From Cyclobacteriaceae bacterium (lineage in GTDB: Bacteria > Bacteroidota > Bacteroidia > Cytophagales > Cyclobacteriaceae), in contig JABFRS010000001.1 in NCBI GenBank assembly GCA_013141055.1, forward strand, positions 2,476,567 through 2,540,566: 64,000 bases of DNA. Reading direction: 5' to 3'. A model generated the notes under the pieces. That model saw nothing but the letters and a program-made list of their open reading frames with translations, had not been told where the DNA came from and made no database searches. Below are positions 30,226 to 41,676 of the stretch, piece after piece (positions within the stretch are counted from its first letter, which is position 1; every line of letters starts with the position of its first letter). Made by a program: the position numbers and the translations under genes.

Positions 30226-31683
30226 GTGAAGCGCAGGAAAGCATTAAAGCAGATTGGTTGGGGTCTTTCGGGAAGTATTTTGCTGCCTTCTTTATTGGAC
30301 GCTTGTGCCAGCAATGATCCAGGGCCGGAAATTAACTACAGCGGAACGGTAGGCGTTATTGGAAGCGGCGCAGCGGGCTTATACGCAGCAGACGTTCTCC
30401 GATCAAAAGGAGTTAAGGTGATTATTTTTGAAGCTCAGGATCAGTTGGGTGGAAGGGTTTGCTCACTTCGCAATCAATCCATTTTACAGCACCCGTATAT
30501 ACCACAACTAAGTTCAGTCTTTCCATTGGAGCTGGGGGCCCAGACAATTGTTGGTTCAAATTCTATTTTGGGAAAAATTTTCAAGGACTACAATTTAACG
30601 TCCATTGAGCTTGCTCCCTCCGATAACACTTTTGTTTTAGGCAATCAGGCCAAGACTGAGGGTGATTGGGGAAATGATGTTGATTTCATAAAAGCTAAAA
30701 ATTTTAAGTCCGATGTTCCTAATAAAGTAGGAAGTGGTCTGACAGTGAATGATGCTGCAGTAAGTTTTGGTGTTGCTCCAAGAGGACTTGGAATGGTAAA
30801 TGGACAGATCAGTAACGCACATGGAGCAAGCAGTACATCCATTGGTATTGGTGTCCTTGCTGAAGACGAAAGACTTTTAGCCACCAGTGGCAATGATCTT
30901 AAGGTACTTCAACTTCGTTCAAATCCTTTACAGGACATTCTGATTTCACGTTTTAGTACTGTTCAGGATCTTGTAAAACTTAGCACCCCGATCTCATCGG
31001 TGAATTATGGAGGTGAGAAAATAACCTTAACAGCAAAAGACAATTCAACTTTTGAAGTCGATAAACTTATCGTTACTGTACCCATCAGTATTTTAAAAAG
31101 TGGTGGTATCTCTTTCGCCCCGGGATTGCCAGGTGATTTTACAGGAGCGCTCGCCAAGTTTTCAATGGGAGCTTCCATTCGTGTTATTCTTGAATTCAAA
31201 AAGAATTTCTGGGGGCCAGCAACTGGATTTGTCTGGGGATCAACGGAAGTGCCTGAATATTTCAGCGCGGGAGTTGGAAGCGAATTTAATCAGACTCTTT
31301 CCATCACAGTGCACGGTGACAAGGCTGCGCAATACTCAGCGATGAGCAATGATGCTATTGTGAATGCCATTATTGCTGATCTTGATTTAATCTACGCCGG
31401 ACAAGGAACTCAGTTTATCCGCAAGGATGTGAATACTGAGAAAAACATTTACATTATTGAAGACTAGACAAAGCGTGAGTACATCAAAGGAGGATTTTCT
31501 TATCCTTTAGCAGGTGCCACAAATGAAGACCGCAAAACACTTTGCAAACCAATTTCTGATAAATTATTCTTTGCTGGCGAAGCGACGGATGTCACTGGTC
31601 AGGCAGGTATGATCAATGGAGCTTTGGCTTCCGCCGAACGCGTAGTGGAAGATGTGGTAAAGTCCATCACAGGTGTAGTTTGA
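30226..31683 (+). pseudogene. FAD-dependent amine oxidase interrupted by an in-frame TAG
   Basis: The frame from the GTG at 30226 encodes a twin-arginine, lipobox-like signal (KRRKALKQIG and LLDACAS), an FAD-binding GSGAAGLYAADVL (46-58) with LGGRV, and an amine-oxidase body, then meets TAG at 31465-31467 after 413 residues. The same frame continues to 31683 with KREYIKGGFSYPLAG and FFAGEATDVTGQAGMINGAL, the family's C-terminal FAD-contact region. The family has Trp at the stop position (EDW before the Tyr/Gly-Gly segment), so a single TGG-to-TAG change explains it. Without the tail the enzyme should not bind FAD properly. A sequencing error or amber readthrough are the alternatives. Confidence 0.85.
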
Positions 31684-32322: not shown

Positions 32323-32835
32323 TTATTTTTTTAGTTTGATAAACTGAACACATTTGCCGCCATGAGCTTCGAATTCTTTTTCAAATTGCATTCCAATTTT
32401 TTCAAGGACGTGGATTGAATTACGGTTTTCTTTCATTGCCTTGCCAACTATTTTCTTTAATCCTGACTGATTGAATCCGAAATCAAGACAAGCGCTGGCG
32501 GCTTCTGTTGCGAATCCATTGCCCCAATAGTTTCTTGAGAGACGAAAGCCGATATCAGTTTCTTTATTTTCTCTATTGAAGTTCAAGCCACACCATCCCA
32601 GATACTCAGCCGGATCTTTTGATAGAATGGTCCATCGTCCATAACCATACTTTTTGTATTGATCGTACTCCCGGATGAGATTAGAGGCTTCGTTGATTGT
32701 TTTGAAAGCTTCATCACCAGTGAAGCGAATGACTTCAGGATCGGAATTCAAATCAAACATGAACTTCGCATCTGACGGAAGAAATTCTCTCAGCACCAGG
32801 CGTTGGGTAGTAATGATGACTTTAGGTTCACTCAT
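32323..32835 (-). CDS. GNAT acetyltransferase (RimJ/RimL type)
   Basis: A 170-residue GNAT beginning with RLVLREFLPSDAKFMFDLNSD, the usual RimJ/RimL-like entry, and carrying the acetyl-CoA site RNYWGNGFATEAASACLDF (about 104-122). The target amine is unknown. Its start overlaps the stop of the esterase gene by 8 bp, so it is coupled to that gene and may modify a product of the neighbouring ligase cluster, which is speculative. Confidence 0.85.
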   Translation of the reverse strand: MSEPKVIITTQRLVLREFLPSDAKFMFDLNSDPEVIRFTGDEAFKTINEASNLIREYDQYKKYGYGRWTILSKDPAEYLGWCGLNFNRENKETDIGFRLSRNYWGNGFATEAASACLDFGFNQSGLKKIVGKAMKENRNSIHVLEKIGMQFEKEFEAHGGKCVQFIKLKK

Positions 32836-33685
32836 TGTTTCCGAATGCCCATTTCAGGAATTCAGGCATTGCTTGTGACCAGGTTTCCTGATTATGCTTG
32901 CCGTTCTTGATCTCAAGATATTGAATGTCATGAAAGGGACGATATCCTTTTCGCGTAAGCTCTGTGATAAGGTCCATCGTATCATCAATAGAATCGATGA
33001 CGCCATTTTTGTTTCTGTCACTGTTCTCATCCTGCGTCCCGGTTTGAAACCAGAATTTCATTCCAGGTTTGAATTTTCCTCTTCTTACTTGCAGATGCAT
33101 CAGCCGGTCGCGGTAATCTGAATAAAAAATGCTGCGTGTGTCACGCTTTCTCCACCAGAATGATCCGCTGAAAATTCCAGCCTTGCTGAAAACTTCCGGG
33201 TTATTCCATACGATGTCAATTGCGGATAAGCCGCCCAATGAATATCCCGCCATTGCGTGGGCAGAAAGAGAGGGGTCGATAGGGTATTTATATGTGAGGT
33301 AGGGGATGAGCTCTGTAATTATGTAATCTGAATAGGCTTTTGCCATTTTTCCGCGACCAAAATAATCTGATCTGAATGCTACGCCATATTCCTGCATCCG
33401 ATCCGCAGCCATGACTCCAACCACAATGATTTCCGGAATAATCTTTTCGGCAACCAGCTTCTCCACTGTCGCCTTTACTTTGACTGCATCGCTATCCTGA
33501 CCGTCATTGAGGATCAACAAAGGATACAATTTGCTTTTATCAAGCACCAAAGGAGTCATAATCTCCACCTCGACATTGCGCTGAAGCAATTTCGTGTAGA
33601 TATCGCTAAGCTTTTCAGAACGGTAGGCAAGCGCTGGTTCAGCAATAGCAGATGGATCTTCAGCTTTATTTAGGTCTTCCGGCAT
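32828..33685 (-). CDS. Enterochelin-esterase-like alpha/beta hydrolase
   Basis: A 285-residue putative esterase without a signal peptide. The nucleophile is S149 in GYSLGG and a likely catalytic His lies in GKHNQETW. A loop DRNKNGVIDSIDD (about residues 228-240) has the spacing of an EF-hand calcium site. The fold matches the Fes/esterase-D group that cleaves esters or amides of small peptidic compounds. It diverges from the ligase cluster at 33768-39616 and probably shares its theme. An exact -7 element lies 9 nt upstream. Confidence 0.8.
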   Translation of the reverse strand: MPEDLNKAEDPSAIAEPALAYRSEKLSDIYTKLLQRNVEVEIMTPLVLDKSKLYPLLILNDGQDSDAVKVKATVEKLVAEKIIPEIIVVGVMAADRMQEYGVAFRSDYFGRGKMAKAYSDYIITELIPYLTYKYPIDPSLSAHAMAGYSLGGLSAIDIVWNNPEVFSKAGIFSGSFWWRKRDTRSIFYSDYRDRLMHLQVRRGKFKPGMKFWFQTGTQDENSDRNKNGVIDSIDDTMDLITELTRKGYRPFHDIQYLEIKNGKHNQETWSQAMPEFLKWAFGNNE

Positions 33686-33767: not shown

Positions 33768-34475
33768 ATGTACGAACATTATCATCGTTGGTATTCCCCA
33801 AGTCTGAGTCGCGATATTGAAGTGCTTGCGTTTGGGACGCGTGGTTATCCAATCATGTTGTTCCCCACTTCCATGGGACATTTTACAGAGAACAAGGATT
33901 TTAAACTGATTGATAGTGTTGCATGGTTTGTTGAAGAAGGACTTGTGAAAATTTATTGCCCTGATGGAATCGACTCTTCGAGTTGGTACAATAAAAATAT
34001 TCATCCTGCGCAGCGAGTCATTAATCACATGTGGTATGATAATTTTTTACTGACAGAGCTTGTTCCACTCATGCAGCGCGAAACCGGAGTAGGTCGCGTG
34101 GCAACCGCGGGCTGCAGTTTTGGTGGATATCATGCTACCAATTTTGCATTCAGACATCCTGAAGTTGTAAAGTATGTTTTTAATATGGGTGCAGCTTTTG
34201 ATATCAAGGATCAGCTGGATGGATATTATGATGATAATGTGTACTTCAACAATCCTCCCGACTTCATTCCCAACGCACATAATGATTTCTTCCACGATAT
34301 GTTTGTCGTATTAGGTACTGGTACACACGATATGTGCTGGAGCGCGAATGAGAAAATGGCAGAAGTGTTTCGTAATAAAGGCATTCATCACTGGCTTGAT
34401 GTCAGACACAATGCTCCTCACGACTGGCCGGCGTGGAGAGAAATGTTCCCTCACTATTTATCAATGATCCGCTAA
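33768..34475 (+). CDS. Esterase-family alpha/beta hydrolase of the ligase cluster
   Basis: A 235-residue cytoplasmic hydrolase of the putative-esterase type. Nucleophile S117 lies in AGCSFGGYHA and the likely catalytic His is H218 in NAPHDWPAW. It begins directly MYEHYHRWYSPSLSRDIEVL with no signal peptide. It is the first plus-strand gene of a run leading into two ATP-grasp-type genes, a GCS2 ligase and a glutamine amidotransferase; such esterases recur beside amidoligases, so cleavage or release of the cluster's product is inferred. Confidence 0.8.
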   Translation: MYEHYHRWYSPSLSRDIEVLAFGTRGYPIMLFPTSMGHFTENKDFKLIDSVAWFVEEGLVKIYCPDGIDSSSWYNKNIHPAQRVINHMWYDNFLLTELVPLMQRETGVGRVATAGCSFGGYHATNFAFRHPEVVKYVFNMGAAFDIKDQLDGYYDDNVYFNNPPDFIPNAHNDFFHDMFVVLGTGTHDMCWSANEKMAEVFRNKGIHHWLDVRHNAPHDWPAWREMFPHYLSMIR

Positions 34476-34501
34476 GAAATCATTTTTTAAACCTGAGCCA
34501 C

Positions 34502-35431
34502 GTGAAAGGAATTTTTATTAAACTTTTTTCACTTACCCTATTTGTAGCTTCTTCCAATTTCCTGCTGGCATCGGTCAACATCCAAACATCGGTTGACATC
34601 GGAGGTATTAAACAATGGATCAGTATCAAGGGAGCTAACGATAGCGATCCGGTTTTACTTTTTTTGCATGGAGGTCCGGGTAACTCGGTCATGAGTTATG
34701 CAGATAAGTTTACAAATGACTTACAAAAACACTTTATCGTAGTACAATGGGATCAGCGTGAAGCGGGAACCACGGCAAAATTGAATGCCTCCAATCAACC
34801 TTTGACAGTAGCTTTAATGGAGGAAGATGCTCGGGAGCTTGTCGATTATCTGAGATTAAAATTCAGTCGCGATAAAATTTTTCTAATGGGTCACTCGTGG
34901 GGCGGATTTCTGGGTCTTAAACTAGCAGCGGATCATCCCGATCTGTTTGAGGCTTACTTTGCTGTGAGCCCCATGGTATATCAGGACGAAAGCGAACAAC
35001 GCTCCCTTGCATGGATGAAAGAAAAGGGCAAGGGGAATACTCAGGAATTAAAAGAGCTTGCCATGGTTAGGATCCCTTTTCAATCTGTGGGTGATCTTTA
35101 TTATCACCGTAAGTGGTTGGCTGTGGGAATGGGATCGAAAGCACCTTTCAAAGCTTTTGTGGAAAGCTGGGATAAGAAATGGTTGGGATTATTTCTGGAA
35201 GCTTCAAAAGTTAACTTTTTTGAGGTCGCACCTGAAATCAAATGCCCTATATACTTCTTTGTGGGAAAGCGAGATTATCAGACACATTCAGGATTGACAG
35301 AAGAATATTATAAAATGCTGAAAGCAGGAAAAAAGGACTTATTTTGGTTTACTAATTCAGCACATAATCTTAACCTAACCGAATCACGAAAATTCCAACA
35401 GATCGTTATTTCACTGAAGTCAAAAAATTAA
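34502..35431 (+). CDS. Exported alpha/beta hydrolase (proline iminopeptidase-like)
   Basis: A 309-residue hydrolase read from a GTG at 34502. The frame is open further upstream to an ATG inside the previous gene, but GTG places a good signal peptide (IKLFSLTLFVASSNFLLAS) at the N-terminus. Oxyanion motif HGGPG, nucleophile GHSWGG, acid GKRDYQ and a final NSAHNL His give a complete triad of the S33 iminopeptidase type. It lies 26 nt after the esterase and 7 nt before the ATP-grasp gene, so is co-transcribed. An exported aminopeptidase would fit trimming or recycling of a peptide-like product. Confidence 0.8.
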   Translation: MKGIFIKLFSLTLFVASSNFLLASVNIQTSVDIGGIKQWISIKGANDSDPVLLFLHGGPGNSVMSYADKFTNDLQKHFIVVQWDQREAGTTAKLNASNQPLTVALMEEDARELVDYLRLKFSRDKIFLMGHSWGGFLGLKLAADHPDLFEAYFAVSPMVYQDESEQRSLAWMKEKGKGNTQELKELAMVRIPFQSVGDLYYHRKWLAVGMGSKAPFKAFVESWDKKWLGLFLEASKVNFFEVAPEIKCPIYFFVGKRDYQTHSGLTEEYYKMLKAGKKDLFWFTNSAHNLNLTESRKFQQIVISLKSKN

Positions 35432-35438
35432 AACCATC

Positions 35439-36458
35439 ATGAAGAAAATCGGAATATTACACGGCATGGAACGCTCCTTTCCTCAGGCATTTGTTGAGCG
35501 CATTAACAGTCTTAAGATAAAAGGCATTTCGGCTGAGCCCGTTATGATCGACAAAGTTCAACAGGCAGATCCATCAGGATATTCCGTGATTCTGGATCGG
35601 ATTTCTCAGGACGTTCCTTTTTACAGAGCCTATCTTAAGAATGCTGCAATCTCCGGAACGGCCGTTATGAACAATCCTTTCTGGTGGAGCGCTGATGAAA
35701 AGTTTTTTAATAACGCGTTAGCTGTAAAGATCGGAGTACCGGTTCCAAAGACAGTTATCCTCCCTTCACATGAGAAACCTACTGATACCCAGGATGGTTC
35801 TTTCAGCAATTTAAAATTTCCTTTGGGTTGGGATGCAATCTTTGAACATATTGGATGGCCAGCATACATGAAGCCACACTCTGGTGGAGGCTGGAAAAGT
35901 GTTTACAAGCTTAGAGGTCCTGAAGAATTTTTTGAAGCTTACCGCGAGACAGCACAATTGGTAATGATGCTTCAGGAAGAAATTATTTTTGATGATTATT
36001 TCAGATGTTATTGCCTTGGCAGAAAACATGTTCGCATTATGCAATATGAGCCACGCAACCCGCATCACTTAAGATATGTTGTCGAGAAGGGGCCAGCTTC
36101 TGAAAAATTGTTAAAGAAAGTTCATGACTATGTAATGGATCTTAACAATGCATTAGGATATGATTTCAATACAGTTGAAATGGCAGTCCGTGATGGAGTT
36201 CCTTATGCAATTGACTTCTGCAATCCTGCACCCGATGCGGATGTTGCTTCAGTGGGTCAGGAAAATTTTGAATGGGTAGTAGAACATGCCGCGAAGATGG
36301 CTGTTGAGCGCGCACAAGCTCAGAAGGACGGACAGGATAACCTCACCTGGGGAACTTTTGTATCCGATGGTGTTGCAAACTTTTTGAAATCAGGTAAATC
36401 AAAACCGGCTGAGCCAAAAGAGGAAAAACCAGCAGCAAAAAAGTCAACAAAGAAATAA
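35439..36458 (+). CDS. ATP-grasp ligase of the amidoligase cluster
   Basis: A 339-residue ATP-grasp protein. The N-terminal lobe starts MKKIGILHGMERSFPQAFVE; the ATP-binding lobe has WPAYMKPHSGGGWKSVYKL (about 142-160), the acidic patch LQEEIIFDDYFRCY, and the metal-binding end NTVEMAVRDGVPYAIDFCNPAPD (about 232-255), as in RimK and D-Ala ligases. It should join a carboxylate to an amine using ATP. The last 25 residues are Lys/Pro/Ala-rich (PAEPKEEKPAAKKSTKK) and look unstructured. The gene is followed after 25 nt by a GCS2 ligase. Substrates are unknown. Confidence 0.82.
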   Translation: MKKIGILHGMERSFPQAFVERINSLKIKGISAEPVMIDKVQQADPSGYSVILDRISQDVPFYRAYLKNAAISGTAVMNNPFWWSADEKFFNNALAVKIGVPVPKTVILPSHEKPTDTQDGSFSNLKFPLGWDAIFEHIGWPAYMKPHSGGGWKSVYKLRGPEEFFEAYRETAQLVMMLQEEIIFDDYFRCYCLGRKHVRIMQYEPRNPHHLRYVVEKGPASEKLLKKVHDYVMDLNNALGYDFNTVEMAVRDGVPYAIDFCNPAPDADVASVGQENFEWVVEHAAKMAVERAQAQKDGQDNLTWGTFVSDGVANFLKSGKSKPAEPKEEKPAAKKSTKK

Positions 36459-36483
36459 TGTTTGCCAGAAGCATGGCGCGAAT

Positions 36484-37581
36484 ATGGAAAAATTCACTTT
36501 AGGCGTTGAAGAAGAGTATATGGTCATTGATCCCGTTACGCGGGAATTGAAGTCACATGAACATAAAATTGTAGACATCGCTGCGCAGATGCTGGGTGAC
36601 AGTGTAAAAGCTGAAATGCATCAGGCTGTTGTAGAAGTCGGAACAGGCATCTGTAAGGATGTATTTCAGGCTCAAAGCGAGATAAAGATGCTTCGGAAAA
36701 CGGTTGCCGAGATTGCCGGAAGTATCGGATTAAAGATCGGAGCATCCGGAACACATCCCTTCTCACACTGGAGCACGCAACTCATAACGCCTAATCCCCG
36801 CTACGACGAAATTGTAAACGAAATGCAGGAAGCGGCCAGATCTAATCTCATTTTTGGACTGCATGTTCACGTAGGGATAGCTGATAAGAACATGGCTATC
36901 CACATCATGAATACGGTGAGGTACTTTCTTCCTCACATTTATTCTCTTTCTACCAATTCTCCTTTTTGGGAAGGTAGAAATACTGGATTCAAATCTTTCC
37001 GGACAAAAGTATTTGATAAGTTTCCACGCACAGGCCTGCCCGACTATTTTAATGACTGGGATGATTTTAAAAACTATGTTAATCTTCTTATTCGCACCAA
37101 GTGTATAGATAATGCAAAGAAGATCTGGTGGGATGTTCGTGTTCACCCATTCTTTGACACAATCGAGTATCGCATATGCGATGTTCCAATGCATGTCGAG
37201 GAAACCATTGCGATTACAGCTGTGCTTCAGGCATTAACAGTAAAGTTGTATAAACTGCGACTGCAGAACATGAGTTTCATTGTCTACAACAGAGCTCTTA
37301 TCAGTGAAAACAAATGGCGTGCATCCCGCTACGGAATTGACGGCAAGCTCATTGACTTTGGAAAGCAGGCAGAAGTTGATACCCGTCTTTTGATCCTTGA
37401 GCTCCTCGATTTTATTGATGATGTTGTGGATGATCTTGGAAGTCGCCCGGCAATCAATTATGTGCATAAGATCTTGCAGCAAGGAACAGGAGCTGATCGC
37501 CAGTTGCAGGTATTTGAAAAGACCCATAGTCTTGAAAAAGTAGTTGACTACATCACGGACCAGACACTGGCCGGAGTTTAG
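36484..37581 (+). CDS. GCS2-family carboxylate-amine ligase (YbdK-like)
   Basis: A 365-residue member of the glutamate-cysteine ligase type 2 family (YbdK branch). The N-terminus FTLGVEEEYMVIDP holds the first metal-binding glutamates, GLHVHVGI lies near residue 125, and RYGIDGKLIDFG near 282. Family enzymes join the gamma-carboxyl of glutamate or a similar acid to an amine using ATP; YbdK itself has weak glutamate-cysteine ligase activity. Here it lies between an ATP-grasp ligase and a glutamine amidotransferase, so it probably makes one amide bond of a cluster product rather than glutathione. Confidence 0.9.
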   Translation: MEKFTLGVEEEYMVIDPVTRELKSHEHKIVDIAAQMLGDSVKAEMHQAVVEVGTGICKDVFQAQSEIKMLRKTVAEIAGSIGLKIGASGTHPFSHWSTQLITPNPRYDEIVNEMQEAARSNLIFGLHVHVGIADKNMAIHIMNTVRYFLPHIYSLSTNSPFWEGRNTGFKSFRTKVFDKFPRTGLPDYFNDWDDFKNYVNLLIRTKCIDNAKKIWWDVRVHPFFDTIEYRICDVPMHVEETIAITAVLQALTVKLYKLRLQNMSFIVYNRALISENKWRASRYGIDGKLIDFGKQAEVDTRLLILELLDFIDDVVDDLGSRPAINYVHKILQQGTGADRQLQVFEKTHSLEKVVDYITDQTLAGV

Positions 37582-37598
37582 ATTTTATAATTGCGAAT

Positions 37599-38429
37599 AT
37601 GAGTTCAATTAAAATTGCCATTCTGGATTTATATGAAGGAGAGACGAATGAAGGCATGCGTTGCATTCTTCAGTTGGTAGAGCAGTTTAAACACGACTTT
37701 GGTCTCAATCTGACGTATGATGTAATCGATGTCCGCTTAAAAAAAGAAATCGCTGACCTTAGCTACGACGCATATATTTCTTCCGGTGGTCCGGGAAGCC
37801 CATTGGAAAGTGAAGGCTCAGATTGGGAAAGAAATTTTTTTGGATTGATGGATGGAATCCGCAAGCATAATTCTCAAAACCCATTTGACAGAAAGTCCAT
37901 ATTTCTGATTTGTCATTCGCTCCAGATCTATTGCCGCTATTACAACTACGCCCAGGTGAAGAAAAGAAAAGGAGCGGCGTTTGGTGTGATGATGATCAAT
38001 AAAACCAAGTCGGGACGGACAGAGCCTTTATTGAAAAACCTTCCAGATCCTTTCTACGGTGTAGATTCAAGAACGTATCAGATTGTACAGCCCCGTGAAG
38101 AAAAAATTATTTCTGGAGGAGGGCAGATTGTTTGTATAGAGAAAGACAGACCGCATGTGGAATTGGAAAGAGCTGTAATGGCAATTCGTTTTGATGAAGC
38201 TATTTTCGGAGCTCAATTTCATCCTGAGGCTGACTCTGATGGTATGTATAAATATCTGATCACAGAAGAAAAGAAGAGAGATGTGATTGAAAAGCACGGT
38301 GAGAAGAAATACTATCAGATGCTTCAGTATCTCAATGAGCCAGATAAAATCAAATTGACATATAAAACAATCGTTCCTTCTTTTTTAAGAATGGCTCTTA
38401 AGAAAAAAATGAACGCAGTCCTATTATGA
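37599..38429 (+). CDS. Class I glutamine amidotransferase-like protein
   Basis: A 276-residue GATase-1 protein. The triad is present: C105 in LICHSLQ, H208 and E210 in AQFHPEAD, and SSGGPGSP forms the oxyanion strand. The elbow around the Cys lacks the usual Gly on both sides (G-x-C-x-G). A C-terminal extension of about 60 residues (220-276) is not part of the core domain. It should release ammonia from glutamine, or hydrolyse a gamma-glutamyl amide, for the adjacent ligases. Its TGA overlaps the ATG of the next gene (ATGA). Confidence 0.85.
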   Translation: MSSIKIAILDLYEGETNEGMRCILQLVEQFKHDFGLNLTYDVIDVRLKKEIADLSYDAYISSGGPGSPLESEGSDWERNFFGLMDGIRKHNSQNPFDRKSIFLICHSLQIYCRYYNYAQVKKRKGAAFGVMMINKTKSGRTEPLLKNLPDPFYGVDSRTYQIVQPREEKIISGGGQIVCIEKDRPHVELERAVMAIRFDEAIFGAQFHPEADSDGMYKYLITEEKKRDVIEKHGEKKYYQMLQYLNEPDKIKLTYKTIVPSFLRMALKKKMNAVLL

Positions 38430-39616
38430 TTCCAGAAGTTCGGGCAGCTTACAACAAAAGTTTTTCTGAAAGCAAGTATGCTGCTTTTCTTGCCGAACTT
38501 GATGCACTTTATAATTACAAGATCACATTCAGGGTTGCGGAGACTCCATTATTCGTCGGACACGATTTCAAAAAAAAACTTATCCAGGCATCAGATGATA
38601 TTATTGATTTTCTGGTCAGAAAGGATGTAAAGGAACTAACGGCACCAGCGCTTCCTCCTGAACTTAATGTTCCAAACGAAACAGATCATACTCTTTTCCT
38701 CGCGCTTGATTTTGCCGTGGTAAAGTATGGTAATGAACTTGAGCCCAGATTGATTGAGATGCAGGGATTTCCTTCCCTCTATGGATGGCAGGATTTGATT
38801 TCACAGAAATACCGTGAACATTTCGATATTCCTGATCGCTTGCAAAGCCATTTTGGTTTCTCATCAGAGGAGTATCGCGAAAAGATCAGAAAAGTTTTAT
38901 TGAATGGTCATGATTCCGAAAATGTCATTCTCCTTGAGATTGATCCTTTAAAGCAGAACACAGCGATTGATTTTCTTGTTACAAAAGATTTCACCGGCAT
39001 CGAACCTGTACATATAGGTGATGTTATTCGCGAGGGTAGAAAATTATTCTACATAAAGGATGGTAGAAGAATTGCCATTAAAAGAATCTATAACCGTGTG
39101 ATTTTTGATGAGTTGGTAAAACGTCCAGATCTTCAGCTATCATTTAAAATGACAGACGATGTTGATGTGGAGTGGGCAGGTCATCCTAATTGGTTTTACC
39201 GGATCAGTAAGTACACAATGCCGCTGATCAAGAGCAAGTATATTCCGGAGTGTAAATTTTTATCCGATTATAAGGAGTTTCCAAAAGATCTTGAGAATTA
39301 CGTTTTAAAGCCACTTTTTTCATTCTCAGGAAGCGGAGTGATCTTTCATGTTACAGCCGATGATCTTAAAACGATACCTGAAAATCAGAGACATGAGTTT
39401 ATGTTGCAGCGAAAGGTTGAGTATGAACCTGTTTTGCAAGCTCCTGATGGAATGGTTAAGATCGAGATTCGTTTACTATTCATCTGGGAAGATGGACAGC
39501 CCCGACCTCAATTGATAACAAACCTCGCGCGCCTCAGTCGCGGAGAGATGATCGGAGTGAAGTACAATAAGGATAAGACATGGGTAGGCGGATCAGTTGC
39601 ATTTTTTGAAGATTAA
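38426..39616 (+). CDS. Divergent ATP-grasp-like protein of the amidoligase cluster
   Basis: A 396-residue protein. Its second half has ATP-grasp-like marks: ENYVLKPLFSFSGSGVIFHV (about 291-310), a Lys followed by a Gly-rich turn, then HEFMLQRKVEYEPV and a conserved end KIEIRLLFIW with LARLSRGEMIGVKYN that resembles the last strands of ATP-grasp enzymes related to glutathionylspermidine synthase. The first half (VPNETDHTLFLALDFAVVKYG, LIEMQGFPSLYGWQ) is well ordered but unfamiliar. Start overlaps the amidotransferase stop, so both are made together. A second ligase of the same pathway is inferred; the assignment is moderate. Confidence 0.65.
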   Translation: MIPEVRAAYNKSFSESKYAAFLAELDALYNYKITFRVAETPLFVGHDFKKKLIQASDDIIDFLVRKDVKELTAPALPPELNVPNETDHTLFLALDFAVVKYGNELEPRLIEMQGFPSLYGWQDLISQKYREHFDIPDRLQSHFGFSSEEYREKIRKVLLNGHDSENVILLEIDPLKQNTAIDFLVTKDFTGIEPVHIGDVIREGRKLFYIKDGRRIAIKRIYNRVIFDELVKRPDLQLSFKMTDDVDVEWAGHPNWFYRISKYTMPLIKSKYIPECKFLSDYKEFPKDLENYVLKPLFSFSGSGVIFHVTADDLKTIPENQRHEFMLQRKVEYEPVLQAPDGMVKIEIRLLFIWEDGQPRPQLITNLARLSRGEMIGVKYNKDKTWVGGSVAFFED

Positions 39617-39626
39617 ATTTTAATAA

Positions 39627-40190
39627 TTGAAGATTTTTCTGACGGACCAACAGTCCCATTTCAAGGTTCTTTTATCTCAGCTCATTGCAAAAAACGTAAT
39701 GGAATATGAGAAAGGTACTTTGCGTGAAAGTGTTTCAACGATCAGGCTGTCTTCAGCAAAGCGATTAAATGAAGTAGACACAAGTTTCCTTTTTGACTAT
39801 TCTATTTTTCCGGAAACTATTATGACACATCTCTCGCAATGGAAGGATGAGAATAGGAAAATGAGAGAGGGAGATAACATTTTGCAGCAGGTTTACATTC
39901 CTCCAATACCAGGCTTTTCGCAAAAGATAATTTTTGGAGTCAGGATCAATTCAATTATCAATGAGCCTAATCGCATAGGGTTCAGCTACGAAACCCTGGA
40001 AGGTCATGTAGAGAAAGGGGAATCAATGTTTACGATGGAAGAGATAAATGGCAAACTCTTTTTCAAAATTCGTACGTTTTCACGGCCAGGGATTTTTTTA
40101 GCCAGAATATTGGAGCCAATTTTTTCAAAGCCTTATCAGTCTTACTGCACTCAAAAGGCACTTAATAATGTGAGAGATCAGGTAAGATGA
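39627..40190 (+). CDS. DUF1990-like protein
   Basis: A 187-residue protein starting with TTG at 39627. YSIFPETIMTHLSQWK and GFSYETLEGHVEKGESMFTME match the DUF1990 pattern, a family of unknown function related to lipid-binding folds and often near membrane-lipid genes. It follows the ATP-grasp-like gene by 10 nt and precedes a UbiA gene. Whether it belongs to the amidoligase pathway or to the UbiA step is open. Confidence 0.65.
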   Translation: MKIFLTDQQSHFKVLLSQLIAKNVMEYEKGTLRESVSTIRLSSAKRLNEVDTSFLFDYSIFPETIMTHLSQWKDENRKMREGDNILQQVYIPPIPGFSQKIIFGVRINSIINEPNRIGFSYETLEGHVEKGESMFTMEEINGKLFFKIRTFSRPGIFLARILEPIFSKPYQSYCTQKALNNVRDQVR

Positions 40191-40253
40191 TCCTTTACAG
40201 TTTTTTAAAGAAGTAAATTTCCGAATCTTCAAATCTTCAAATTACTTTGCGGA

Positions 40254-41087
40254 ATGTCTCTTTTACGTTCCTTGTTTGTACTCACCCGGTTTTGGAACCT
40301 GATCATCATAGGCCTGGCTCAGTACTTCACAGCGTACTTTCTTATATCCCCAGATTCTTTATTTGACTTCCGACTTCTGCAACTATCAATTTCTACCGTG
40401 TTGATTGCTGCGGCAGGATACATTATCAATGACTATTATGATGTAAAAATTGATCTTATCAACAAGCCTGAGAGAGTTGTGATAGGCAAGTCTATTAAAA
40501 GACGTTATGCTATCTTATTTCATACTATCCTCTCAGTAAGTGGGGTTGCCCTTGGATTTCTTCTTGACTGGAAGATTGGTGTATTGAATTTTTTTTGTGC
40601 TTTTACTCTTTGGCTCTATTCCAATGCCTTGAAAAGATTGCCATTCATTGGCAATTTTACCGTCGGTCTTCTCACTGGTTTATCCATTTTCATCATCAAC
40701 CTTCTATACCCTCCATTGCTGACGCTAACAATCATCTACTCCCTCTTTGCTTTTTTCATCACGCTGGTAAGAGAGATCATTAAAGATCTGGAAGATTTGA
40801 GGGGAGATGATACGTTTGGATGCAAAACTCTTCCGATTGTATGGGGAATACGCAGGACCAAAGTATTTATTTATTTCCTATTGATACTTTTTTCCCTTTT
40901 AGTGCTTGCGCTCAATCAGTGGATTGCCCCCTTGCCACTGCAATTCCTGCTTTGGTCGCTTTTTGTGCCAATGGTAATACTTGCTGGCTGGCTGGTGCGG
41001 GCTGATACCCGAAGAGATTTCTATCAACTAAGTCAATTTTGTAAGATCATCATGATCGCCGGCGTATTGAGCATGGCATTTCTTTAA
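40254..41087 (+). CDS. UbiA-family prenyltransferase
   Basis: A 277-residue membrane prenyltransferase with about eight helices. First Asp-rich motif NDYYDVKID (59-67; N59, D60, D63, D67), second DLEDLRGDDTFGCKTLP (about 175-191). The pattern matches the geranylgeranylglycerol-phosphate synthase and protohaem/chlorophyll-type branch annotated broadly in Bacteroidota, but the acceptor cannot be named. Gap to the DUF1990 gene is 63 nt. PurN follows. Confidence 0.87.
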   Translation: MSLLRSLFVLTRFWNLIIIGLAQYFTAYFLISPDSLFDFRLLQLSISTVLIAAAGYIINDYYDVKIDLINKPERVVIGKSIKRRYAILFHTILSVSGVALGFLLDWKIGVLNFFCAFTLWLYSNALKRLPFIGNFTVGLLTGLSIFIINLLYPPLLTLTIIYSLFAFFITLVREIIKDLEDLRGDDTFGCKTLPIVWGIRRTKVFIYFLLILFSLLVLALNQWIAPLPLQFLLWSLFVPMVILAGWLVRADTRRDFYQLSQFCKIIMIAGVLSMAFL

Positions 41088-41088
41088 T

Positions 41089-41096
41089 TAGGTTTG
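41089..41096 (+). promoter_or_regulatory. -7 element overlapping the UbiA-purN junction
   Basis: TAGGTTTG, an exact TAnnTTTG, ends only 4 nt before the GTG start of purN. Used as a promoter it would give a leaderless purN mRNA. Confidence 0.4.
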
Positions 41097-41100
41097 CGCC

Positions 41101-41676
41101 GTGGAAAGTCCAAAGAAATTTAACATTGCAATTTTTGCTTCGGGTAATGGTACCAATGCCGAAGCGATCATAAAATATTTTTTAGGGAACGAGCAGATAT
41201 CTGTTTGTGCTCTGCTGAGCAATAATCCTTCTGCCAAAGCCTCACAGAGAGCTGAGAATCTCGATGTGCCATCATACATTTTTGATAAGCCTCAGTTTTT
41301 AAATGGCAGTATGATTCTCGATGTTTTAAAGAAAGCGCAGGCAACACATATTGTTCTTGCGGGTTTTCTTTGGCTAATACCGGATTATCTGATTAACACT
41401 TATCCCATTATTAATATTCATCCTTCCCTCTTGCCAAAATTTGGAGGTAAGGGAATGTATGGAAGTAAGATACATCATGCTGTAAAGGAAGCTGGGGAAT
41501 TTATAACTGGAATTACAATTCATGAGGTTAATGGTAATTTCGATGAGGGCAAAATTTTATTTCAGGCTTCCATAGCTATAGAAACAAGCGATTCCATTGA
41601 ACAGATTGGGAACAAAGTCCATGCGCTGGAGTATCAGCATTATCCTGTCGTGATTGAAAACTGGATATTGAAATAA
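41101..41676 (+). CDS. purN: Phosphoribosylglycinamide formyltransferase
   Basis: A 191-residue PurN that transfers formyl from 10-formyl-THF to GAR in purine synthesis. IAIFASGNGTNAEAII binds the phosphate, INIHPSLLPKFGGKGMYG holds the catalytic His, and ITIHEVNGNFDEGKI the catalytic Asp. The start is GTG, 13 nt after the UbiA stop. It is convergent with the SnoaL-type gene. purH lies at 56901-58427, not in an operon with it. Confidence 0.92.
   Translation: MESPKKFNIAIFASGNGTNAEAIIKYFLGNEQISVCALLSNNPSAKASQRAENLDVPSYIFDKPQFLNGSMILDVLKKAQATHIVLAGFLWLIPDYLINTYPIINIHPSLLPKFGGKGMYGSKIHHAVKEAGEFITGITIHEVNGNFDEGKILFQASIAIETSDSIEQIGNKVHALEYQHYPVVIENWILK

Follow-up and report, generated by a model that had tools for sequence, protein, structure and literature searches.

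A conserved amide-ligase gene set of Bacteroidota that may encode a carrier-free route to a small gamma-glutamyl-type compound

The window analysed here, a 64,000-nucleotide stretch of contig JABFRS010000001.1 (positions 2,476,567 to 2,540,566) from a Cyclobacteriaceae bacterium (GCA_013141055.1), contains six open reading frames (ORFs) at 33768-39616, all on the plus strand. Five of these, together with a divergent esterase gene (EstA), comprise a set conserved in Bacteroidota: a hydrolase (EstB), two ligases with ATP-grasp-type folds (AG1 and AG2), a carboxylate-amine ligase (GCS2), and a protein of the class I glutamine-amidotransferase fold (GAT). We suggest that the set represents a carrier-free, probably cytosolic pathway leading to a small gamma-glutamyl-type peptide or peptide amide, and give this reading a probability of about 45%; that the set makes a small amide compound of some kind is quite likely. 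The presence of a gamma-glutamyl-type, a glutathione-synthetase-fold and a RimK-like ligase side by side suggests a short peptide built without a carrier and containing two or three amide bonds. We infer the steps of this pathway from families, predicted folds, conservation, gene order and co-occurrence.

Ligases, gene order and co-occurrence

GCS2 is a YbdK-type GCS2 carboxylate-amine ligase by its family, with a predicted activity. It matches PF04107 (E 2e-62) and the carboxylate-amine ligase family NF010039 (531.6 bits, cut-off 371), also scores over the curated cut-off of TIGR02050 (298.3 bits, cut-off 176.4), and matches YbdK among the solved structures (1r8g, E 2e-50). The two other ligases of the set, AG1 and AG2, fall in no Pfam family at E 0.01. 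Sub-cut-off RimK/LysX matches alone were obtained for AG1 in NCBIfam (best E 4e-5), its 23 bits against the RimK family TIGR00768 being far under the cut-off of 143.4, and AG2 matched no NCBIfam family at E 0.01; the best match of the AG2 profile in PDB is YgiC, with E 0.039. Predicted structures of both proteins were compared using Foldseek, with VIA as a second look (a family missing from the VIA listing is not thereby excluded), and they point to a RimK-type ATP-grasp fold for AG1 and, over the whole chain, to the glutathione synthetase/GspS/YgiC superfamily fold for AG2. Catalytic-type residues of the set proteins are conserved in the sequence alignments.

The initial annotation, made from the sequence alone, had placed in this locus two ATP-grasp-type proteins, a GCS2 ligase and a class I amidotransferase. 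The first are supported by the predicted folds, though not by Pfam, and the last two by NF010039 and by the PF00117 score of GAT (34.8 bits, cut-off 22.8). It had also described six consecutive genes with gaps of no more than 26 nt and one ATGA overlap. The coordinates agree, and the spacing holds if ABH, the second gene of the run, starts at the GTG at 34502, its probable start within the mechanical ORF 34433-35431: the gaps are then 26, 7, 25 and 17 nt, followed by the 4-nt ATGA overlap of GAT and AG2. Its view of the locus as an amide-ligase set with neither a carrier protein nor a nonribosomal peptide synthetase among its genes is retained here.

The co-location of the core genes exceeds chance. 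A scan of named genome contigs with the AG2 profile gave at least 592 relatives, the best 80 of which were taken (the counts are hence biased to near kin), and stretches of up to 9 kb on either side of AG2 were searched by tblastn with the window proteins. GAT was found in 74 of these 80 loci, GCS2 in 67, AG1 in 57, EstB in 54 and EstA in 48; the corresponding counts for the genes flanking the set in the window are 8 for HAD, 2 for AmOx and DUF1990, and 1 for each of GNAT, UbiA, PurN and NadR. When ORFs of at least 80 aa were grouped into families across the same loci, the core families reached 79, 72, 66, 56, 45 and 37 loci (a second EstA cluster reached 10), and the next families 28 and then 10. 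Gene order is also kept: where the stretch reaches 6.5 kb or more beyond AG2 on its upstream side (69 loci), EstB, AG1, GCS2 and GAT all precede AG2 in 42, with EstA as well in 30 of the 42, while GAT alone precedes it in 5 and no core gene in 4. The evolutionary distances of the six proteins correlate (r 0.75-0.92), which shared ancestry alone could give.

Presence and absence follow a similar pattern, and the five or six genes tend to come and go together in Bacteroidota. Fifty-eight relatives were searched with AG2, GAT, AG1, GCS2 and EstB; some of these genomes are incomplete, and an absence is not always real. AG2 is present in 32 of them and GAT in the identical 32, to which AG1 adds a 95-residue piece at a contig end (G021) and a chance-level match of E 6e-4 (G028). 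GCS2 occurs in 30 genomes, all with AG2. The tally for EstB is 33 genomes, of which 31 match strongly and two at E 6e-4; G021 has the gene. No EstB was detected in G014, whose AG1 starts 427 bases from a contig end, or in G029, whose AG1 is split between two contigs. The genes still co-occur where they are spread over at least two contigs (G001, G002, G033, G043, G045, G052, G038 and G057). Fisher's test for AG1 against AG2, which ignores shared ancestry, gives p 1.5e-15. Of the 22 genera of these relatives, 6 contain the set; in the genus to which the window belongs, nine genomes have none of the five genes (one shows a chance AG1 match).

In an even sample of the phylum, comprising 198 Bacteroidota genomes each at least 90% complete, a search at E 0.001 detected AG1 in 73 genomes, representing 56 of the 102 genera. 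Without the genome of the window and a match of E 8e-4, 71 of the 73 remained, and in these we profile-scanned the surroundings of AG1. In 52 of the 71 loci, AG1 has within 6.5 kb either another core gene or a circularly permuted ATP-grasp protein (CPAG; Pfam CP_ATPgrasp_2); by gene, GCS2 was found in 37 stretches, AG2 in 34, EstB in 33, GAT in 32 and EstA-like esterases, some of them weak, in 25. Checked in this way across Bacteroidota, the neighbourhood noticed by the initial annotation proves to be shared: linkage is the rule in relatives, so the orthologues are not mostly unlinked. Since AG1 is found in 73 of 198 genomes, and since in near relatives the genes of the set are nearly always all there or all missing, the product is probably something used by the cells rather than a rare antibiotic. 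The distribution of AG1 resembles that of a widespread conserved pathway more than that of a strain-specific natural product.

Proposed pathway and the role of GAT

The pathway would work like the glutathione and glutathionylspermidine routes, with ligases of its own. GCS2 would use ATP to activate the carboxylate of glutamate or a similar acid and join it to an amine or amino acid; AG2 would phosphorylate the free carboxylate of the GCS2 product and add a second amine or amino acid; and the RimK-like AG1 would add, or cap with, a further residue. EstA and EstB may hydrolyse an ester, thioester or acylated form. For GAT, whose gene overlaps AG2, we see an even chance that it acts on the product as a Cys amidase or gamma-glutamyl hydrolase, trimming or recycling it; a supply of ammonia to a ligase is doubtful, and a transfer of acyl groups is unlikely.

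GAT has the residues Cys105, His208 and Glu210 invariant in 29 sequences (their roles are assigned here) and also keeps a GGPGxP loop. The canonical nucleophile elbow of class I glutamine amidotransferases is C-x-G-x-Q; GAT has an invariant C105-H106-S107-x-Q109 instead. The closest solved relatives are homoserine O-succinyltransferases (E 6e-6), from which the acyl-transferase reading of GAT comes as a minority reading. In the 71 phylum loci, GAT accompanies AG2 in 21 and CPAG in 11. Thirteen AG2 loci lack a local GAT; it lies elsewhere in 9 of these genomes and was not found in 4. Two of the 4 carry an M29 aminopeptidase gene in its place, between GCS2 and AG2, and the other two have neither GAT nor M29 aminopeptidase. 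The two M29 proteins are 62% identical to each other, and their type was found only in those two of 14 genomes, the other 12 having none (3) or relatives at 27-32% identity (9). GAT is thus apparently replaced by an M29 aminopeptidase in two genomes.

GspS pairs a synthetase with an amidase. The coupling of GAT to AG2, together with the apparent replacement by an aminopeptidase, suggests that such a GspS-like pairing fits better than an ammonia feed. The proposal of the initial annotation that the amidotransferase provides ammonia is not upheld by the genomes that lack GAT, and GAT as an ammonia supplier is weakly supported by its sequence.

Several observations weigh against the gamma-glutamyl pathway in its present form. 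GCS2 was not found in G038 and G057, where the other four genes are present, and the CPAG variant has none next to AG1; the gamma-glutamyl step is therefore not universal. In 19 of the 71 phylum loci AG1 has no other core gene within 6.5 kb. None of AG1, AG2 and CPAG falls within a curated equivalog. The usual metal-binding motif of the glutathione synthetase fold is E-x-N, and AG2 has E111-x-Q113, invariant in 39 sequences and equated with that motif by eye. Moreover, two proteins of the AG2-type fold behave otherwise: Cp1B takes a dicarboxylic acid and no gamma-glutamyl substrate (PMC12568646), and YgiC does not synthesise glutathionylspermidine (PMC12506659).

In the CPAG variant, found in 11 of the 71 loci, CPAG follows AG1 and precedes GAT, and neither GCS2 nor AG2 is local. 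GCS2 lies elsewhere in 4 of the 11 genomes, and AG2 was not found in any of them by a genome-wide search, which had no positive control. The AG2 and CPAG profiles match weakly in hhalign (probability 3%, E 0.015), co-linearly over the motifs, and their common descent is a guess.

Alternative readings and known systems

The lack of GAT in 4 of the 13 genomes mentioned above, two of them with the aminopeptidase, also speaks against an amide-capped small compound, for which GAT would release ammonia from glutamine and AG2 would use it to amidate a carboxylate. The PF00117 score, the Cys-His-Glu set, the GGPGxP loop, the overlap with AG2, and the constant company of AG2 or CPAG in the 71 loci are consistent with it, but the CHSxQ elbow and the homoserine O-succinyltransferase match are not, and we regard it as improbable. 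Equally improbable is a pseudo-peptide begun from a dicarboxylic acid instead of glutamate, as in the synthesis of E-64: 30 of the 32 AG2-bearing relatives have the YbdK-type ligase, and neither an epoxidase nor an ANL ligase is among the genes conserved in the 80 loci, although Cp1B offers a precedent for such a substrate.

AG1 and AG2 might instead modify a protein or carrier peptide with added residues, which GAT, peptidases and esterases would edit or remove. According to the titles of solved entries, RimK targets ribosomal protein S6, and LysX and ArgX target the carrier LysW, which would suit AG1. This protein modification seems unlikely to us, as no small protein of at least 80 aa is conserved with the set in the 80 loci, and known GCS2 and glutathione-synthetase-fold enzymes act on small molecules. 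A breakdown or detoxification of amines by temporary gamma-glutamylation, in the PuuA/PuuD manner known for putrescine, could explain why esterases and peptidases stand alongside the ligases, and gamma-glutamyl hydrolases of the GAT fold, such as PuuD, exist. We consider it very unlikely: two or three ligases would be unusual in a breakdown route, the families conserved across the 80 loci include no oxidase or dehydrogenase, and only 2 of these loci have a linked counterpart of the amine oxidase gene at 30226.

The gamma-glutamyl pathway has its closest parallels in the synthesis of glutathione, homoglutathione and glutathionylspermidine (GshA-type ligase with eukaryotic-type glutathione synthetase, GspS, YgiC/YjfC), which likewise combines a gamma-glutamyl-type ligase with one of the glutathione synthetase/GspS fold; a coupled partner of amidase-like function would be a further parallel, to GspS. 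It differs from these routes in that AG2 has no detectable sequence family link to them and that the set adds a third, RimK-like ligase and two esterases. In addition, the window genome contains BshC of the bacillithiol pathway (449.7 bits, cut-off 265.8). We considered the replacement of a missing main thiol by the set product; the presence of BshC makes such a role less likely, and a second thiol is still compatible with it. From RimK, LysX and ArgX, AG1 differs by lying far under the RimK cut-off and among other ligases. Cp1B of the E-64 pathway differs from AG2 in its use of epoxysuccinate, its ANL-type partner and its fungal origin (PMC12568646).

Linked amidoligases are already known as a kind. 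The neighbourhoods of Iyer et al. 2009, as cited in PMC8939145 and PMC4431377, combine ATP-grasp ligases with COOH-NH2 ligases (GCS2 and others) and were predicted to make peptide-like metabolites; the window set is of the same kind, and its exact neighbourhood may be among them. No title on an experimental study of such a set was found in the literature, where subscription papers were mostly beyond reach, and a full-text search for GCS2 with ATP-grasp listed a single paper, on PafA and Dop.

More tentatively, the set may make a widespread glutathione-like gamma-glutamyl metabolite of Bacteroidota that exists beside bacillithiol, is built by three ligases, and is kept in balance by a ligase and an amidase (AG2 with GAT or M29), with the GCS2 and AG2 pair exchanged for a permuted ATP-grasp module between lineages. 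Should the product prove to be a glutathione-like peptide, a major environmental phylum would have a common metabolite yet to be recognised.

Accessory genes and locus variants

Genes of the set and the accessory gene ABH in the window
Gene	Coordinates	Strand	Description
EstA	32828..33685	-	PF00756 esterase, divergent partner; 90.7 bits
EstB	33768..34475	+	small PF00756-type alpha/beta hydrolase, first of the plus-strand run; 31.7 bits, cut-off 22
ABH	34502..35431	+	alpha/beta hydrolase, Abhydrolase_1/Hydrolase_4, N-terminal signal-like stretch; accessory, non-core
AG1	35439..36458	+	ATP-grasp ligase, predicted RimK/LysX/ArgX fold
GCS2	36484..37581	+	YbdK-type carboxylate-amine (gamma-glutamyl-type) ligase, predicted
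GAT	37599..38429	+	class I glutamine-amidotransferase-fold protein; Cys105/His208/Glu210, CHSxQ elbow
AG2	38426..39616	+	ligase, predicted glutathione synthetase/GspS/YgiC fold; ATGA overlap with GAT

EstA belongs to the set and ABH is accessory. EstA begins 82 bases from EstB, and 40 of its 48 matches in the AG2 loci are in this divergent position; the remaining 8 are weak (25-27%) and lie downstream of AG2, in seven Flavobacterium loci and L109. ABH was found in 6 of the 80 loci and 1 of the 71, always between EstB and AG1. The initial annotation had counted two alpha/beta hydrolases and bordered the cluster by the plus-strand run: the run is real and EstB is core, but ABH is not, and the conserved esterase on the other strand had been missed. 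The residues S149, D219 and H264 of EstA are kept in at least 97% of 30 sequences, and S117, D188 and H218 of EstB in at least 97% of 44; no signal peptide of EstA is apparent by eye.

The window genome is 4.65 Mb in two contigs, and its closest named relatives in the AG2 profile scan are Cyclobacteriaceae. Beyond EstA, the minus strand carries an acetyltransferase-like and then a HAD-like gene (named by eye). On the other side, at 39627-41676, AG2 is closely followed by co-directional DUF1990, UbiA-like and PurN-like genes that may be co-transcribed with it here; they were left out of the set because they occur in just 2, 1 and 1 of the 80 loci. None of the seven proteins matches a PADLOC anti-phage defence model at E 1e-5. 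A search of plasmids found no match to AG1 or AG2 and 14 distant relatives of EstB (29-33% identity); tblastn of three of these stretches detected no further core gene. One of the relatives, on a Peptoclostridium acidaminophilum plasmid (L164), follows an ATP-grasp_4 gene; hutH lies on that strand too, a few genes further downstream.

A class III aminotransferase family occurs in 28 of the 80 loci, mostly directly after AG2. It was not accepted as a member of the set: the Runella copy (L106) lies 5 kb away, and we take the arrangement as a lineage-specific gene order. In one single-contig metagenome assembly (L033 and L068; G024, CP058703.1), the GAT gene is split into three frames, by sequencing error or as a pseudogene.

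Flavobacterium-type loci carry an extra M17 aminopeptidase, third ATP-grasp gene and esterase. A block of an esterase, an M17 leucyl aminopeptidase and a third ATP-grasp lies reversed downstream of the set in L109, L116 and L127-L132 (for L127 and L129-L132 by cluster counts), and upstream in the same direction in L217 and L218. In L175, L231 and L235, an EstA-like esterase and an ATP-grasp_4 gene come after the CPAG variant, with an Asparaginase_2 (isoaspartyl-peptidase-type) gene on the opposite strand.

Among the 19 phylum loci with an isolated AG1, it stands alone in 12 and with a histidine ammonia-lyase gene in 7, all of one family (f41: L173 and L222-L227); the pairing was seen in none of the 64 other loci. 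The ammonia-lyase gene follows AG1 in the same direction, 8 to about 500 bases off, and the three of the seven proteins that were scanned are all over the hutH cut-off. This linkage may reflect a histidine- or urocanate-related substrate or a lineage-specific gene order. In L173 and in L182, which belong to different families of the phylum, an LpxH-type phosphoesterase-like gene (named by eye) lies directly upstream of AG1.

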